From assembly GCF_011578285.1 (NCBI RefSeq), contig NZ_CP049916.1:248001-312000 (forward strand): 64,000 nt of DNA, read 5' to 3'. The translations under genes and the position numbers were made by a program. Shown in pieces: positions 54,884 through 62,090 of this stretch; the stretch's first letter is position 1, and each line of letters begins with the position of its first letter. The notes under the pieces are model-generated. The model saw only the letters and a program-made list of their open reading frames with translations, made no database searches and was not told where the DNA came from. The DNA comes from Acinetobacter lanii (GTDB lineage Bacteria > Pseudomonadota > Gammaproteobacteria > Pseudomonadales > Moraxellaceae).

Positions 54884-57715
54884 TTACCCCTTTGGTACCG
54901 GACCGGTGATACTGGTGTTACGTGAATCTCCCAACACTGAAATCATCAGCATGGTGGCGCCGACCACGGTGATATACACGCCTAAATCAAATGCAGCAGC
55001 AGAGGCCAAATGCATTTTTCCAAGCAGGGCAGGGTGGATATAAATATGGGCACTGGTCAGGAATGGACGTCCCCACAGCCAAGCCGCAATACCGGTGAGA
55101 CCTGCGATCATTAAACCGATCCCGATCCAAATTTCATAAAGACGCCCAGACTTCGCGCGCAATAGCTTTTCCGCTTGATCTTGACCTAAGGCAATGTATT
55201 GAATCACGAGCGCCATTGAGGTGATCAGACCCGCAATAAAACCACCTCCAGGTAAGTTATGACCACGTAAGAAAATATACAGGCTCACCACCAATGCGAT
55301 CGGTAGAACCCATGACGCTGTCATACGGAACATTAGAGGGGATGGATTGAAACGGTAAGTGAGCCCTTGCGTGATGATGGTGCCATGAGCACGCATCCCA
55401 TCCATCAAGCACAAAGCACCAATCGCAGCAATGCCGAGTACGGTAATTTCACCGAAGGTATCAAACCCACGGAAATCCACCAAGATCACATTCACCACAT
55501 TGGAACCGCCACCCAACGGTAAGGACTGTTGCATAAAGAACCATGAAATCGAGTTATGGTCTCGGGTCAGAATCAACCACGCAATCCAACCAATGCCTAG
55601 TCCCCCGACAATCGCAATGACGGCATCACGCCAACGGCGTGTTCGAGAAGATTCATAGGGGGTCAGTTGTGGTAACAGTGCCAAGCTCATCAGGAGCAGC
55701 ACCGTAGTCACCACATCCACCGTGATTTGGGTTAATGCCAAATCCGGTGCAGACAGGCTGACAAACACCATGGTCACCACCAGTCCAACCGCACCACTGA
55801 TCAGTACCGCTTTAATGCGTTCATGGTGGAACCACAGCATCATCCAGCAGGCAGAGAACAATAATAACCACAGCACAATCGCCAACAACGGTGCATGGGT
55901 CAGTTCACGGGTGCCAGTGGTGATGCCTTGCCCAATGAAAGGTAGTGCCACCACTGCGACAGTGAAAATCACAATCCAGAGTAGATAATTTTGTAGTGAG
56001 CCGGTCTCGGTGGCACGTTTGAATTTGCGTGAGTTGAGTAATAATTGTTTTAAAAATTGTTCAAATAATAATTTACCTTGAAAAGCCCCCAACATTGGGT
56101 CAAGGTCGATGTCACGAATTTTGCCGCCTTTGGCCAAGGCAAAGTAAAAGATCAAACCACCAATCAAAGCAATCGCGCTCATCAGAAGCGGTAAATTAAA
56201 GCCATGCCATAAGGCCAAATGAGTGCCTTCAAAAGTTGCCAACTGTGTACTGGCACGTGTGCCAGCATTGACAATTTGCTCAACCAAAAGCGCAGGAAGA
56301 ATACCCACTGCAATGGTTAGGGTCGCCAATAAAATGGCAGGTGCGCGCATACCGATATGGGGTTCATGCGCATCTTTTTTCGGTACATCTCGGCCGATGT
56401 CACCATCAAAAAATACCCCATGAATCAAACGTGCTGAATAGGCAACGGCAAATAGGCCTGCCAAGGTCGCAACAATCGCTGCGGTGACAGCCACACCACC
56501 ACTTAAATTTTCAAGCAGCTCAGTAAAGAACATTTCTTTGGACAAGAAACCATTGGTCAGTGGCACGCCTGCCATCCCTGCGGCGGTAATCATGGCTAAG
56601 GTGGCAGTAAACGGTAGCAGTTGCCAAATCCCACTGAGTTTTCTGAGATCTCGTGTGCCAGTTTCATGGTCAATAATCCCTGCAATCATGAACAATGCCG
56701 CTTTGAAAGTGGCATGGTTAATGATATGGAAAATCGCAGCAGCCACGGCAAGCGGTGAGCCAATCCCCAGCAACGCCACGATTAAACCCAAATGGCTGAT
56801 GGTGGAATAAGCGAGTAAACCTTTTAAATCTTCTTTGAAAATGGCAAAGAATGCCGCCATACACAGCGTTAAAAGACCAATCGTGGTCACTAGGTTGTGA
56901 TACAGCGCTGAGCCGACAAAGATCGGCAGCAGTCGTGCCAACAAGAAAATACCGGCTTTCACCATGGTCGCCGAGTGTAAATAAGCCGACACAGGCGTCG
57001 GCGCTGCCATGGCATTGGGTAACCAAAAATGAAAAGGGAACTGCGCACTTTTGGTAAAGGCACCTAAAAGTACCAACAACAGCGTAGGGATAAACAGCGG
57101 ACTACTTTGAATGGTTTCACGCATCGTCAGAATTTGATCAATCTGATACGTGCCGGTGATTTGCCCCAATAAAATAAAACCACCAAGCATGGCAAGCCCG
57201 CCCAGTCCTGTGATGGTCAATGCCATACGTGAGCCTCTTTGGGCTGCATCGTAATTGTTCCAATACCCGACCAACAGGAACGAGGAAATACTGGTCAGTT
57301 CCCAGAAGGTCAGCAAAATCAGTAAATTATTTGAAAGCGAAATACCCAACATGGCTGCCATAAACAGCATCAGTAGGAAATAAAGTTTAGAAAGCGAATT
57401 TTTAGGATTTAAATAATAATAAGCATAAATGTAAATCAGGGTGCCAATACCGGTAATCAGTAAGGCAAAAATCAGTCCGAGCGCATCGAGCCGAAAACTA
57501 AAATCAATACCGAGCTGCGGTAGCCAAGCCCAAGTTTCAGAAACAGCAGCACCATTAAACACTGCTTTGGCTTGAGTCAGTAATAAGCCGAAACTACTTA
57601 AACTGACCCCGATTGCCCCTAAAGCTGTCACCCCGCGTGAGAATTGCTTCAGCCAGAGGACGAGGAAAGTGCCAAGTATTAACGGTAACAATATAATAAT
57701 CGGTAGCACACTCAT
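54884..57715 (-). CDS. mrpA: Na+/H+ antiporter subunit MrpA fused to MrpB
   Basis: 943 residues. The N-terminal 760 residues are the MrpA membrane domain related to NuoL, with FWELTSISSFLLVGYW, KSAQFPFHFWLPNAM and STISHLGLIVALLG. The last 160 residues are an MrpB domain (LYIFLRGHNLPGGGFIAGLI). The fusion marks the PhaA/MrpA group-2 type operon with six genes in place of seven. The complex exchanges Na+ (or K+) for H+ and helps in pH and salt homeostasis. First gene of the operon on the minus strand. Confidence 0.94.
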   Translation of the reverse strand: MSVLPIIILLPLILGTFLVLWLKQFSRGVTALGAIGVSLSSFGLLLTQAKAVFNGAAVSETWAWLPQLGIDFSFRLDALGLIFALLITGIGTLIYIYAYYYLNPKNSLSKLYFLLMLFMAAMLGISLSNNLLILLTFWELTSISSFLLVGYWNNYDAAQRGSRMALTITGLGGLAMLGGFILLGQITGTYQIDQILTMRETIQSSPLFIPTLLLVLLGAFTKSAQFPFHFWLPNAMAAPTPVSAYLHSATMVKAGIFLLARLLPIFVGSALYHNLVTTIGLLTLCMAAFFAIFKEDLKGLLAYSTISHLGLIVALLGIGSPLAVAAAIFHIINHATFKAALFMIAGIIDHETGTRDLRKLSGIWQLLPFTATLAMITAAGMAGVPLTNGFLSKEMFFTELLENLSGGVAVTAAIVATLAGLFAVAYSARLIHGVFFDGDIGRDVPKKDAHEPHIGMRAPAILLATLTIAVGILPALLVEQIVNAGTRASTQLATFEGTHLALWHGFNLPLLMSAIALIGGLIFYFALAKGGKIRDIDLDPMLGAFQGKLLFEQFLKQLLLNSRKFKRATETGSLQNYLLWIVIFTVAVVALPFIGQGITTGTRELTHAPLLAIVLWLLLFSACWMMLWFHHERIKAVLISGAVGLVVTMVFVSLSAPDLALTQITVDVVTTVLLLMSLALLPQLTPYESSRTRRWRDAVIAIVGGLGIGWIAWLILTRDHNSISWFFMQQSLPLGGGSNVVNVILVDFRGFDTFGEITVLGIAAIGALCLMDGMRAHGTIITQGLTYRFNPSPLMFRMTASWVLPIALVVSLYIFLRGHNLPGGGFIAGLITSMALVIQYIALGQDQAEKLLRAKSGRLYEIWIGIGLMIAGLTGIAAWLWGRPFLTSAHIYIHPALLGKMHLASAAAFDLGVYITVVGATMLMISVLGDSRNTSITGPVPKG

Positions 57716-58067: not shown

Positions 58068-59507
58068 TTAAAGCTTCACCGACTGATGACTGTCATCCCC
58101 ACGCATCAGTTTTAGCAATGCCTGTTGTTGCTCATCACTCAATTGTTGGACTTGTTCAAAAAGCGTTTCCACCTTGTTGAGCGCGGTTTGCGGTTCAGTC
58201 AATTGCTCAAGCTCCGAGGCAGACACTTCGCTCATTAAGTCTTGATATAAATCATCGAGTGCCATTTGATTGGCTTCAAGGTCAATCTCTTCAAGAGATT
58301 GGTGTTCCAGTCTGAAATATTGATAGTGCGTAGCATGCTCAAGCAAATCTTCACTAGTCCCTGTGGCGATGATCTGCACATTGGGAAAGGCTTGATGCAG
58401 ACGCGGTAAAACATTCTGGGTCATGTCTTGGTCTAGCTGAGCATCAATATTGTCTATCAATAAAATGCCATCGCCTTCCATGCAAGGGAACAGGCTCTTT
58501 GGGTTGAGCAGACACATGCGTCGCACGATATCGCCCACCAACGCCACCCAGTTGCGAATACTATTGGACAGTTGGCTAAAAGGCATGGTTTGCCCCTGAT
58601 AGACCACCATCAACTGTAACTTGGGTTGATATTCCAAATACAGATCAGAAAATTCAGGAAAAACCGTGTTAAGTGCTGTTTTAAGCGCATTCAAACTCGG
58701 GGTATGCAGTTGAGCTTGTGCTTGAAACAAACTCTGGCTCAAGGAGCTGTCCTTAAATGTTGTTTCGGACGTATCATCGGCGCTTGGATCTTGTTGTGCA
58801 TTGTGTGATGTATCTGCGCCATTAGGCGCTGCATCTTGCTGTTTTGATTGTTGTAAAATCTGTTGAAACAGTTGTGCCGTTTGTGCATTTTCAATATCAC
58901 TGACTTCACGAAACCATTCAAAAAAACGCGCAAACGTGGTGTAAGGTAAGGCTGCCAGTTCATAAGCAGAATGTTGTTGAAACACGCCCGGATTATTTTT
59001 ACTGATCAGATTCATCTCATTCACGAAACGATCGGTTGGGTAATAGGCAATCATCGGTAGACCAATAAATGGGTCTTGGGCAAGGGCTTGATTGTATAGC
59101 TTGGCCATCTGTTCGAGTTGTTGGGTGTCGACTTTACTAAAACCCACGCCATTCGAGTTCAGAGTTTTATATAGTTTCCATGCGCAGACGGAAACATCTT
59201 TTTCTTCACTGGTGGTGCTCTCAGCCAAACTGCCAATTTCACTGGGGAAACGCACCTGAACTTCAATTTTCGATTGCACTCGATGTTGCATAATGTCTGA
59301 ATCGAGCATCACCACACCTGCAGTACGGTTGTCTTTAAAACGTGCCGGGAACCACGTCAGTGCTTGATAAATATTTTTCAGAATAACGGTTTTACCCGAA
59401 GACTGCTGACCCAAAATTAGACTAATCGGTTTTTGGGTGGCGTTGAACCTGATGTTTAAATCAGCGAAATGGTGCGCATGGCGCAAATGTATCGATTGTA
59501 ATTTCAT
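58068..59507 (-). CDS. RecF/SMC-like AAA ATPase with altered catalytic residues
   Basis: 479 residues from the second ATG (59505-59507), which has AGGA 6 bases upstream; the first ATG (59513) would add two residues. Fold of the AAA_15/AAA_23 class (RecF/OLD-like): Walker A GQQSSGKT at 33-40, IAYYPTDR at about 153-160, a Gln/Ser/Asp-rich insertion at about 205-265, a signature-like LSNSIRNW at 313-320, and Walker B GILLIDNID at 347-355. Usual relatives read LIDEID then a TTHS switch; here the catalytic Glu is Asn (N353) and the switch His is replaced (ATGTS, about 381-385). It should bind ATP but may hydrolyse it poorly. There is no TOPRIM nuclease domain at the C-terminus. It follows a UvrD-like helicase gene by 89 bp on the same strand. 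Confidence 0.75.
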   Translation of the reverse strand: MKLQSIHLRHAHHFADLNIRFNATQKPISLILGQQSSGKTVILKNIYQALTWFPARFKDNRTAGVVMLDSDIMQHRVQSKIEVQVRFPSEIGSLAESTTSEEKDVSVCAWKLYKTLNSNGVGFSKVDTQQLEQMAKLYNQALAQDPFIGLPMIAYYPTDRFVNEMNLISKNNPGVFQQHSAYELAALPYTTFARFFEWFREVSDIENAQTAQLFQQILQQSKQQDAAPNGADTSHNAQQDPSADDTSETTFKDSSLSQSLFQAQAQLHTPSLNALKTALNTVFPEFSDLYLEYQPKLQLMVVYQGQTMPFSQLSNSIRNWVALVGDIVRRMCLLNPKSLFPCMEGDGILLIDNIDAQLDQDMTQNVLPRLHQAFPNVQIIATGTSEDLLEHATHYQYFRLEHQSLEEIDLEANQMALDDLYQDLMSEVSASELEQLTEPQTALNKVETLFEQVQQLSDEQQQALLKLMRGDDSHQSVKL

Positions 59508-59596
59508 AATCATCCTGCAACGTCTAGTCTGTTATATGCATGATTTGAAATGCACATTGCAGGGTTTAGAGGATGCAGTCTGACAATGTGTTCAAA

Positions 59597-61129
59597 TTAT
59601 GCTGTTGCTTTATTTTCTAAGGGTTTCAAAGGTGCTTTGATTTTAAGTTGCTGCACCAAATCATAAATATGGTGAATATTTAAACTGATTTTAGCACGAG
59701 TACAGGCCACATACAGTAAACGCAGTTCTTCATCGCTGATTTTATGTTCTAAACCGTTAATTTTAAATTGGTAATCATCTTCAATATGCACCCGATTCCA
59801 CTCTAAACCTTTGGCTTTATGTGCCGTTGAAATCACATAATCCGCTTGCTCAATCGGGGTGATTTTGGCCAAGGCTTTTTTGAGTGGGTCGGTACCATGA
59901 TCATCGACCAACTTGACTAAGGGTTTAATGTCACTGCCATCATTGGTTTCACAGTATTCATGCACATCATGCCATGAGTTAAACCATGCCAACTCAGGCA
60001 CATCGACCACACGTTTGCCTTGTTTCAGTAAACTCGCCGCATCGACAAAACGATTCAATTTGGCATGATCCGCTTGTAGACTGACTTTATCCCCTTGCAC
60101 CAAGCCTGAAAGTAGCAATTCCATGGCACGGGCATTGGTGCGACATAAAATCGCATCGCGCATTTTGGTATGCGGTTTGTTGACAACACTGGATTTCACA
60201 TCCGGATTACCAATCAAAGGTACGGTTTCTGATAATGCACCGAGTAAACGATTGGCAACATCGGCAATGGCATCGCCAAAACGAAACGAGGTGGTGAGTC
60301 GGGATTCAGGCAAAGGCATTTGTTGCATGGCATTGACCGCACCACGCCACGCATAAATTTGTTGATGCGCATCCCCGACATAAATGACTTGGGTATTACG
60401 CTGTCTCAGTAAAATCCCAAGCATCAGGGGGTCGGCATCTTGTGCTTCATCGAACAATACATAATCCGCAGGAATATAGGGATCGGATAATGCCCAGAGT
60501 TTTAAATAAATATCATGTCCGATGCCGGCTTGATGATTTGGATCAATCGACTCGAGCCAACGTTTTTCCACCGCAGGGTAGAGGTGCGTTTGTAGCGGTT
60601 CTATATCATCCGGATGTAACCAACTCGGCGCTTGAATATGACGCGGAGCAGGGTATTGCGAACTGGTCGAACAGAAATAACTGACTGCATTGGCGACAAG
60701 GCTCGCTAAACGACTTGGCATCAGGGCATATTTTTCATAACGTCCGCCCATCATGCGGCGTAAGGTAATCGGCTGGAGGCGATATTCTTTGGCGATAAAA
60801 CTGGGGCTTAAACGGGGCAGGCGAAGTTTGTCAGTCACTCCACGTGGAACGCTACGAAAGGCGAGGGAGTGAAAGGTACGACAGTCGACCCGTTGATGAA
60901 ATTTATTCTGCGCTTCAGAAGCAATGGCTTTATTGAAAGCCAAATACATACCCCGACGCTGCTGCATCGCATCACTGACCAATTTTAACGTGGTGGTTTT
61001 CCCTGTGCCTGCATATGCAATGACTTTGAATGAGTCACCTTTTTGCGCTTGCTCAATGGCAAATTGCTGTTCAAGGGTCGGTTTAATCAGTTCAGGCACA
61101 GTGATATCAAGTCTACGAAAGTGGATCAA
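59597..61129 (-). CDS. UvrD/FBH1-type superfamily 1 DNA helicase
   Basis: 510 residues from TTG at 61127-61129; a GTG ten codons later (61097-61099, giving VPELIKPTLEQ) is an equally likely start, and neither has a strong ribosome-binding site. All SF1 motifs are intact: Q motif region TLEQQFAI, I AYAGTGKTTT, Ia FHSLAFR, II FDEAQDAD (D227-E228), III VGDAHQQIYAWRGA, IV LTTSFRFG, V TAHKAKGLEW and VI LLYVACTRAK. The short length (500 versus 720 in UvrD) and FNKAIA...FHSLAF resemble the FBH1-like branch. A likely role is removing or remodelling DNA-bound proteins or recombination intermediates. It lies upstream of the ATPase gene, and the two may act together. Confidence 0.85.
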   Translation of the reverse strand: MIHFRRLDITVPELIKPTLEQQFAIEQAQKGDSFKVIAYAGTGKTTTLKLVSDAMQQRRGMYLAFNKAIASEAQNKFHQRVDCRTFHSLAFRSVPRGVTDKLRLPRLSPSFIAKEYRLQPITLRRMMGGRYEKYALMPSRLASLVANAVSYFCSTSSQYPAPRHIQAPSWLHPDDIEPLQTHLYPAVEKRWLESIDPNHQAGIGHDIYLKLWALSDPYIPADYVLFDEAQDADPLMLGILLRQRNTQVIYVGDAHQQIYAWRGAVNAMQQMPLPESRLTTSFRFGDAIADVANRLLGALSETVPLIGNPDVKSSVVNKPHTKMRDAILCRTNARAMELLLSGLVQGDKVSLQADHAKLNRFVDAASLLKQGKRVVDVPELAWFNSWHDVHEYCETNDGSDIKPLVKLVDDHGTDPLKKALAKITPIEQADYVISTAHKAKGLEWNRVHIEDDYQFKINGLEHKISDEELRLLYVACTRAKISLNIHHIYDLVQQLKIKAPLKPLENKATA

Positions 61130-61137: not shown

Positions 61138-61250
61138 AGTGAGTATAGCAAGAAATTGAATTGAACAGGCAGAACAATTCAGATGAAACGACATGTTCTG
61201 TCTTATTAAATAGCTCGTTTAGACAGATGTACAAAAAACGCTGTAGCCAT

Positions 61251-61279
61251 AAAAAAAGCCATGTCTAAACATGGCTTTT
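61251..61279 (-). terminator. Terminator of hisIE
   Basis: On the minus strand AAAAGCCATGT, TTAG, ACATGGCTTTTTTT, 29 bases past the hisIE stop codon. Confidence 0.92.
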
Positions 61280-61307: not shown

Positions 61308-62090
61308 TTAGTGACTACGATTGGCTTTTTCAACAAGTCCTGACAAACCTTGACGACGTGCGAGCTCATTCAGCACCAACTGAATGTCGAGGTCGAAATA
61401 ACCGAGCATCACGATAGTGTGGAACCACACATCAGCCACTTCATAGATCAGGTCATTTTTATTGTCTTCATTGGCTGTTGTTTGAAATTCTTTCGCCGCA
61501 ATCACGGTTTCAAAACTTTCTTCACCAATTTTTTCTAAAATTTTATTTAAGCCTTTGTGGTAGAGCTTTGCCACATAAGAGGAATCTGGATCAGCCGCTT
61601 TACGCTCTGCCATCATTTGACCCAAGTAGCTTAAAACATCGACTTGTTCAGCTTGAGCAGTTGATGCATTCATGGCCAAAGTATGTGGGTTGACAGATTT
61701 TTCACCATAGATTTGGTTTGGGTCTTTGAGCTGCGCATCAACAATTTCCCAGCCATTTGGGGTCAATTTACGGTAGAAGCATGATTCACGACCGGTATGG
61801 CAGGCAATCCCACCATGCTGTTCAATTTGCAGCACGATGACATCAGCATCACAGTCTAAACGGATTTCATGTACAGTTTGAAAATGACCAGATTCTTCGC
61901 CTTTGTGCCATAATTTTTGACGTGAACGAGAGAAGTACACCGCTTGATTTTTTTCAGCCGTCAGTGCCAATGCTTCACGGTTCATCCATGCCACCATCAA
62001 AATTCGCCCGCTTTGATGATGCTGAGCAATAGCAGGAATCAATCCTTGTTCGTTAAATTTTACTTCATCGAGCCATTGCACATTGTTCAT
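61308..62090 (-). CDS. hisIE: Bifunctional phosphoribosyl-AMP cyclohydrolase / phosphoribosyl-ATP pyrophosphatase
   Basis: 260 residues. The N-terminal HisI domain (about 1-120) has [28 protein letters not shown], metal-binding LDCDADV and the cysteine motif [14 protein letters not shown] linker is followed by the HisE domain (about 155-250) with [11 protein letters not shown] and [13 protein letters not shown]. It carries out steps two and three of histidine synthesis. Single gene, with no other his gene nearby in the window. Confidence 0.95.

Follow-up and report, generated by a model that had tools for sequence, protein, structure and literature searches.

A PtuA-family ATPase with a degenerate catalytic site encoded behind an FBH1-like helicase in most sampled Acinetobacter genomes

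Towards one end of the 64,000-nucleotide stretch of Acinetobacter lanii DNA analysed here (the window), a helicase gene is followed by an ATPase gene, and the locus raises the question of whether the two form a working unit and, if so, for what task. The initial annotation described them as an intact UvrD/FBH1-type helicase and a degenerate SMC/RecF-like ATPase that might constitute a DNA-processing or defence module. Both open reading frames exist as described, on the same strand with the helicase first (59597-61129 and 58068-59513, both minus), in the following setting:

54884..57715, minus strand: mrpA, encoding a Na+/H+ antiporter subunit, the usual downstream neighbour in nearer relatives and a boundary marker outside the helicase-ATPase module
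58068..59513, minus strand: PtuA-family ATPase; P-loop and Walker B Asp kept, signature Gly, switch His and catalytic Glu (here N355) missing
59514..59596, minus strand: helicase-ATPase gap, 83 nt
59597..61099, minus strand: FBH1-like UvrD-family (SF1A) helicase of about 500 aa, likely start GTG 61099
61250..61279, minus strand: hairpin with T-run that separates hisIE from the helicase in this genome, found by eye and not listed by the terminator scan
61308..62090, minus strand: hisIE, the usual upstream neighbour of the helicase, 208 nt before its likely GTG start

The helicase is intact in its motifs; its start at TTG 61129 is doubtful and probably makes the reading frame too long. In the alignment of orthologues, the family consensus opens with MSxxxKP at the residue that here is V11, so GTG 61099 is the more likely start. 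Several matches within the genus that extend upstream of GTG 61099 contain a stop at an unspecified position. No terminator-like site is listed in the 83-nt gap by the scan, which also misses the hairpin at 61250..61279, and the window holds no open reading frame of at least 80 aa between the ATPase and mrpA of the downstream mrp antiporter operon. The nearest ATPase match, 98% identical, is labelled Acinetobacter sp. 187 / A. lanii.

The helicase matches the Pfam families UvrD-helicase (6.6e-13) and UvrD_C (2.9e-10), and its best sequence match in the PDB is human F-box DNA helicase 1 (FBH1; E 3.5e-42 over residues 15-483), with GajB a far weaker solved relative. The core is accordingly classed as SF1A and most like FBH1, a likeness by sequence only, since the AlphaFold model (pLDDT 35) is unusable. 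Unlike FBH1, this protein is bacterial, contains no F-box by Pfam scan and adjoins a PtuA-like protein. G41-T45, DEAQ 227-230, HKAKGLE 437-443 and YVACTRAK 473-480, which we take to be functional helicase motifs, are invariant among 32 aligned orthologues. All 149 genus genomes, among them that of the window, have a helicase match, and outside the window its identity is 72-93%. The family sample yields some match in 184 of 199 genomes, of which only the strong ones (about E 5e-176 or better) are likely orthologues; besides g1 these fall in genera g7-g12 and g15, while only weak UvrD-type matches, if any, occur in g2, g4, g5, g13 and g14, and no match at all in g3, g6 and g16. Only three genomes outside the family match better than 1e-30 in an order sample of 244. 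One genome has another helicase copy at a separate place (G084:C1:2768215-2769678; L211), which shares 46% identity with that of the window. More distant FBH1-like helicases are found in 1901 plasmid records (1227 typed conjugative), with 44-45% identity in the eight best non-Acinetobacter plasmid rows, and in Acinetobacter phages at 34-36% among the rows listed; in the one plasmid locus read, on pMOL28 (NC_006525.1, L217:4001-5461), the relative is followed by a DUF1173 gene with no PtuA-like ATPase.

The ATPase belongs to a named family. PtuA models lead the PADLOC results, and PtuA structures top the Foldseek fold search, which places the protein in the PtuA-type ABC ATPase fold, VIA-align being unable to exclude folds that Foldseek missed. 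The SMC/RecF-like assignment thus gives way to PtuA, and RecF ancestry is rejected, the RecF model TIGR00611 reaching 19.6 bits against a cut-off of 172 while PtuA structures lead the fold search. The protein is of the PtuA kind and represents no new category, its nearest relatives being Septu and retron effectors. In a tree the helicase-linked ATPases form a clade apart from 12 PtuA relatives of the same bacterial family (support 0.994). The earlier remark that no named system with this combination was known to its author survives only for the pair, for which no name was found in the literature searched.

Comparison with known systems sharpens the anomaly. The likeness to Septu (PtuAB) lies in the ATPase fold, whereas the PtuB HNH nuclease is absent beside the window's ATPase, helicase and mrpA are its neighbours upstream and downstream, and it falls below the curated NCBIfam PtuA cut-off (NF041760; 177.7 against 500 bits). 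Retron I-A (Eco7/Ec78, Ec83) differs in that no reverse transcriptase adjoins the window's ATPase, which has lost the signature Gly, Glu, HLHP and switch His; the reverse transcriptase behind the ATPase in one divergent genome, G131, is DRT4 by the best PADLOC models. A retron I-A-like order does occur at three other Acinetobacter loci (L099, L100, L101), with a gene of 312-315 aa, confirmed as containing RVT_1 for L099 only, then a PtuA-type ATPase and a gene of 220-240 aa. Gabija (GajA-GajB) shares with the pair an ATPase and a UvrD-family helicase on one strand, but here Pfam finds no TOPRIM, the ATPase is PtuA-like and the best GajB model scores only 57.9 bits; as the initial annotation held, the pair is not Gabija.

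How far the catalytic site has changed was counted in 89 helicase-linked ATPases, comprising 80 named loci (the best 80 of 213, biased to nearer relatives), the window and eight divergent loci chosen on purpose. Interrupted copies in G009 and G032 fall outside this set; L160, from the same genome as G022, contributes the 431-aa open part that lies downstream of its stop. The P-loop, GQQSSGKT in the window, is retained as annotated, and G40, K41 and the Walker B residue D354 are kept in 89/89. The catalytic Glu, present in Septu, remains in 4/89, otherwise replaced by Q (37), A (31), N (6), H (6), D (4) or G (1); the window's substitution, given earlier as N353 and apparently counted from Met3, is N355 in the full open reading frame. 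The signature Gly and the His at the aligned switch position, likewise intact in Septu, each occur in 0/89. A His stands one residue past the switch position in seven sequences, among them G131 and G143 with a shifted THS, and two residues past in one; the other 81, the window's among them, have none at 383-389, and no sequence combines the catalytic Glu with a shifted His. Close homologues therefore do not restore both residues, and strain-specific substitution is rejected by motif loss across the genus. Beyond what was first noticed, the signature Gly is lost and the PtuA HLHP motif has become xxLD, with D361 in 89/89; because xxLD is presumably similar to the D-loop seen in other ABC and RecF proteins, HLHP is best counted as altered rather than simply lost. 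D361, R58 and D61 are among the residues invariant in the helicase-linked clade but not in PtuA.

The Gly, Glu, HLH and His are all present in each of the 12 PtuA relatives of the same bacterial family. In a class-level sample, 16 of 369 genomes contain an ATPase match, the window's included, and after duplicate loci were merged by eye, the PtuA-type Gly, Glu and two His persist in 15 of 18 distinct proteins, the other three looking by eye like RecF or other ATPases; no FBH1-type helicase lies in the fetched flanks of these matches. Judged from its residues, then, the ATPase of this clade has lost much of the hydrolysis machinery and keeps the nucleotide-binding loop. The site is not equally degenerate in all sequences, so that certain members, notably those with Glu (4/89), with Asp at the Glu position (4/89) or with a His one residue later (7/89), may retain some ATP hydrolysis.

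The arrangement itself is real and genus-wide. An ATPase match is present in 131 of 149 Acinetobacter genomes and absent from 18, and in 129 it lies directly behind the helicase (123 by coordinates, the window and five divergent genomes), which bears out the co-conservation that the initial annotation had proposed to check. In the 123, matched helicase and ATPase segments are 29-401 nt apart, less than 70 nt in 114, with the 401-nt gap in G093. Among the named loci (best 80 of 213), the ATPase follows the helicase in 79, the 80th being cut by a contig end, at a spacing of -59 to 128 nt (3-50 nt in 66/79). In this same set hisIE is found at 76 loci, at 0-28 nt from the helicase in 55, exactly 9 nt in 28; 12 others overlap by ORF call, one lies at 163 nt and eight at 2.2-2.5 kb. 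Such short spacing (L103-L182) ties hisIE, a gene of histidine biosynthesis, to one for a DNA helicase. Downstream, mrpA lies 201-665 nt behind the ATPase in 76 of these 80 (75 within 482 nt), an AraC-type regulator takes its place in L107 and L125, and the two other loci are near contig ends or have opposite-strand open reading frames next. The eight divergent loci have hisIE upstream in seven and a LeuA-like gene in G093, and downstream, in the five that were read, cytochrome b561 (G014, G144), a glycosyl hydrolase (G030), DRT4 (G131), or an unknown gene and Dus (G143). Because the downstream genes vary in this way, the stable part is the order hisIE-helicase-ATPase, and where the gaps are short the three genes are likely to be co-transcribed. 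The locus as a whole is mostly vertical and syntenic.

The history of the pair is that of an older gene and a later neighbour. Outgroup helicase loci (L083, L084, L087, L088, L090) contain no trace of the ATPase, and the helicase therefore seems the older of the two. It is followed in L087 and L088 by a dihydrouridine synthase (Dus) gene and in L090 by a gene without a Pfam family. Since Dus directly follows the helicase in two loci that lack the ATPase, and the divergent G143 has helicase, ATPase, a 187-aa gene and Dus in that order, insertion of the ATPase between helicase and Dus fits the arrangement; the 187-aa gene (L066:4582-6164) has no Pfam or PADLOC match. In the helicase tree, in which several deep nodes are weakly supported, a divergent ATPase-bearing group branches at the base of the genus and ATPase-less genomes are scattered among carriers. 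These observations fit an early gain followed by repeated loss without proving it. Seven of the 18 genomes without an ATPase match were read; one of the 18, G045, retains a 27-residue remnant. Mere remnants stand behind the helicase in G028 and G037, and the split or stop-containing copies in G009, G032 and G022 could be sequencing errors. Genomes that lack the ATPase still have an intact helicase, whose conservation thus does not depend on the ATPase. Among the matches compared, PtuA-like ones from the family's other genera sit apart from the helicase, and the stronger ones away from the helicase are canonical PtuAs or distant ATPases.

Selection on the two genes differs in degree. Over the 95 of 156 close pairs whose dS was usable, which are not independent of one another, the ATPase has a median dN/dS of 0.069 and the helicase one of 0.023, and the median tree distance of the ATPase is 1.36 against 0.27-0.49 for its neighbours; it evolves faster than the helicase, yet by these estimates is clearly constrained by purifying selection. 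With hisIE as the only control, Mantel r values of 0.82 against 0.63 looked favourable to ATPase-helicase co-evolution. This was rejected once mrpA and mrpC were added as controls, the signal being no greater than general vertical descent: tree distances of the ATPase correlate at 0.69 with the helicase, 0.88 with mrpA and 0.80 with hisIE, and partial correlations are 0.30, 0.51 and 0.46, respectively.

Nor does the pair appear to be mobile; in the collections searched, no true plasmid or phage was seen to carry it. ATPase matches occur in 27 plasmid records, where clade-level similarity among the 12 listed is confined to four A. baumannii records of 1.0-4.1 Mb (48-50% identity), and in six phage records, including two 220-kb 'phage MD-2021a' contigs (50%); other matches listed are 24-36% identical. 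A mobile pair is rejected, the clade-level records (CP035931.1, NZ_CP064203.1, NZ_CP104448.1, NZ_CP077849.1, CAKLQH020000005.1 and CAKLQF020000005.1) looking like misfiled chromosome. This was read directly in two: in CP035931.1 the ATPase is flanked by an FAD monooxygenase and mrp genes, and CAKLQH020000005.1 has hisI, helicase, ATPase and mrp genes in order. The literature searched gave no published link between helicase and ATPase, no name for the arrangement and no match for ABUW_3532/3533, our guess for the AB5075 copies given that hisIE is ABUW_3531. The available parts of PMC6971185, PMC11555353, PMC12198126, PMC12948488 and PMC4410645 (helicase PA1372) hold nothing bearing on the pair.

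What is observed, then, is a PtuA-family ATPase behind an older Moraxellaceae FBH1-type helicase in most sampled Acinetobacter genomes, with several losses. The explanation that we favour, at a probability of about 0.4, is that the ATPase assists the helicase in a housekeeping role, binding nucleotide but hydrolysing it poorly or not at all. Co-transcribed with the helicase, and in many species also with hisIE, it would bind ATP with little or no hydrolysis, assemble through the PtuA dimer surface, and serve, gated by nucleotide, as a scaffold or accessory subunit for activating, loading or restraining the helicase on ssDNA, perhaps during the clearing of RecA filaments or the processing of stalled forks. 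It would do so without an adjacent PtuB, reverse transcriptase or other nuclease, and their absence points to housekeeping rather than a killing device. The accessory role is suggested by the anatomy of the locus together with precedents in the accessible portions of three papers: UvrD-family monomers are autoinhibited and activated by dimerisation or by accessory proteins such as MutL and PriC, with 1B/2B domains less conserved in FBH1 (PMC13238157); yeast Fbh1 disrupts Rad51 filaments (PMC4148199); and Walker A and B mutations in PtuA of Septu EcB88 abolish immunity (PMC13096335). The putative slow-hydrolysing sensor or loader of the initial annotation is plausible. The weakest step is the partnership, the case for which comes down to gene order because the ATPase correlates less with the helicase than with mrpA and hisIE.

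That weakness leaves some room for the two proteins being mere neighbours, the ATPase having its own function, for instance as an ATP-binding scaffold for another partner, and owing its place in the hisIE-helicase unit to history. The lack of specific rate covariation, the unchanged helicase where the ATPase is missing and the wide gap in G093 all agree with this, but same-strand adjacency in 129/149 genomes, the 114/123 short gaps and the nature of the stronger off-helicase matches compared, which are canonical PtuAs or distant ATPases, make it somewhat doubtful. A genus-fixed antiphage or antiplasmid module, with a PtuA-like sensor and a helicase effector as in a Gabija without nuclease, is by analogy conceivable and would suit the Septu and retron kinship, the rapid divergence and the losses of the ATPase. 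The DRT4 gene 30 nt behind it in G131 (L065:4601-6124; PADLOC E 6.4e-208) also belongs here, but it is the only defence gene directly behind the ATPase among the loci read, seven other downstream genes scanned at exceptional loci giving no PADLOC match. The defence reading, including that of the initial annotation, is rendered rather unlikely by the wide, mostly vertical and syntenic distribution with mrpA close behind, the low dN/dS and the absence from true mobile elements; moreover EcB88 PtuA, in the part of PMC13096335 available, needs the Walker motifs, whereas in the present ATPase natural change has removed much of the catalytic site. Lost residues, interrupted copies and remnants might instead mark the ATPase as a decaying relic of an earlier Septu or retron system. 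This is already disfavoured and highly improbable in view of the dN/dS, the long open frames, the invariant P-loop and the clade-invariant residues that PtuA does not share.

The accessory reading suggests a defence protein re-used for another cellular job. Acinetobacter is a genus noted for natural competence, and a bolder form of the idea, which we consider quite unlikely as it stands, is that an immune ATPase was domesticated early in the genus into a nucleotide-locked clamp that times the FBH1-type helicase; no longer cycling ATP or driving a nuclease, it would gate recombinase stripping or DNA unwinding, and so tune recombination, transformation or plasmid establishment. For annotation pipelines the locus is a warning, as a PtuA model matches at E 8.5e-61 though no Septu or retron partner is there. 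It also offers a candidate regulator for a bacterial helicase of the FBH1-like type, and it would be a clear case of a defence ATPase that has lost most of its catalytic site and is kept genus-wide for another use.
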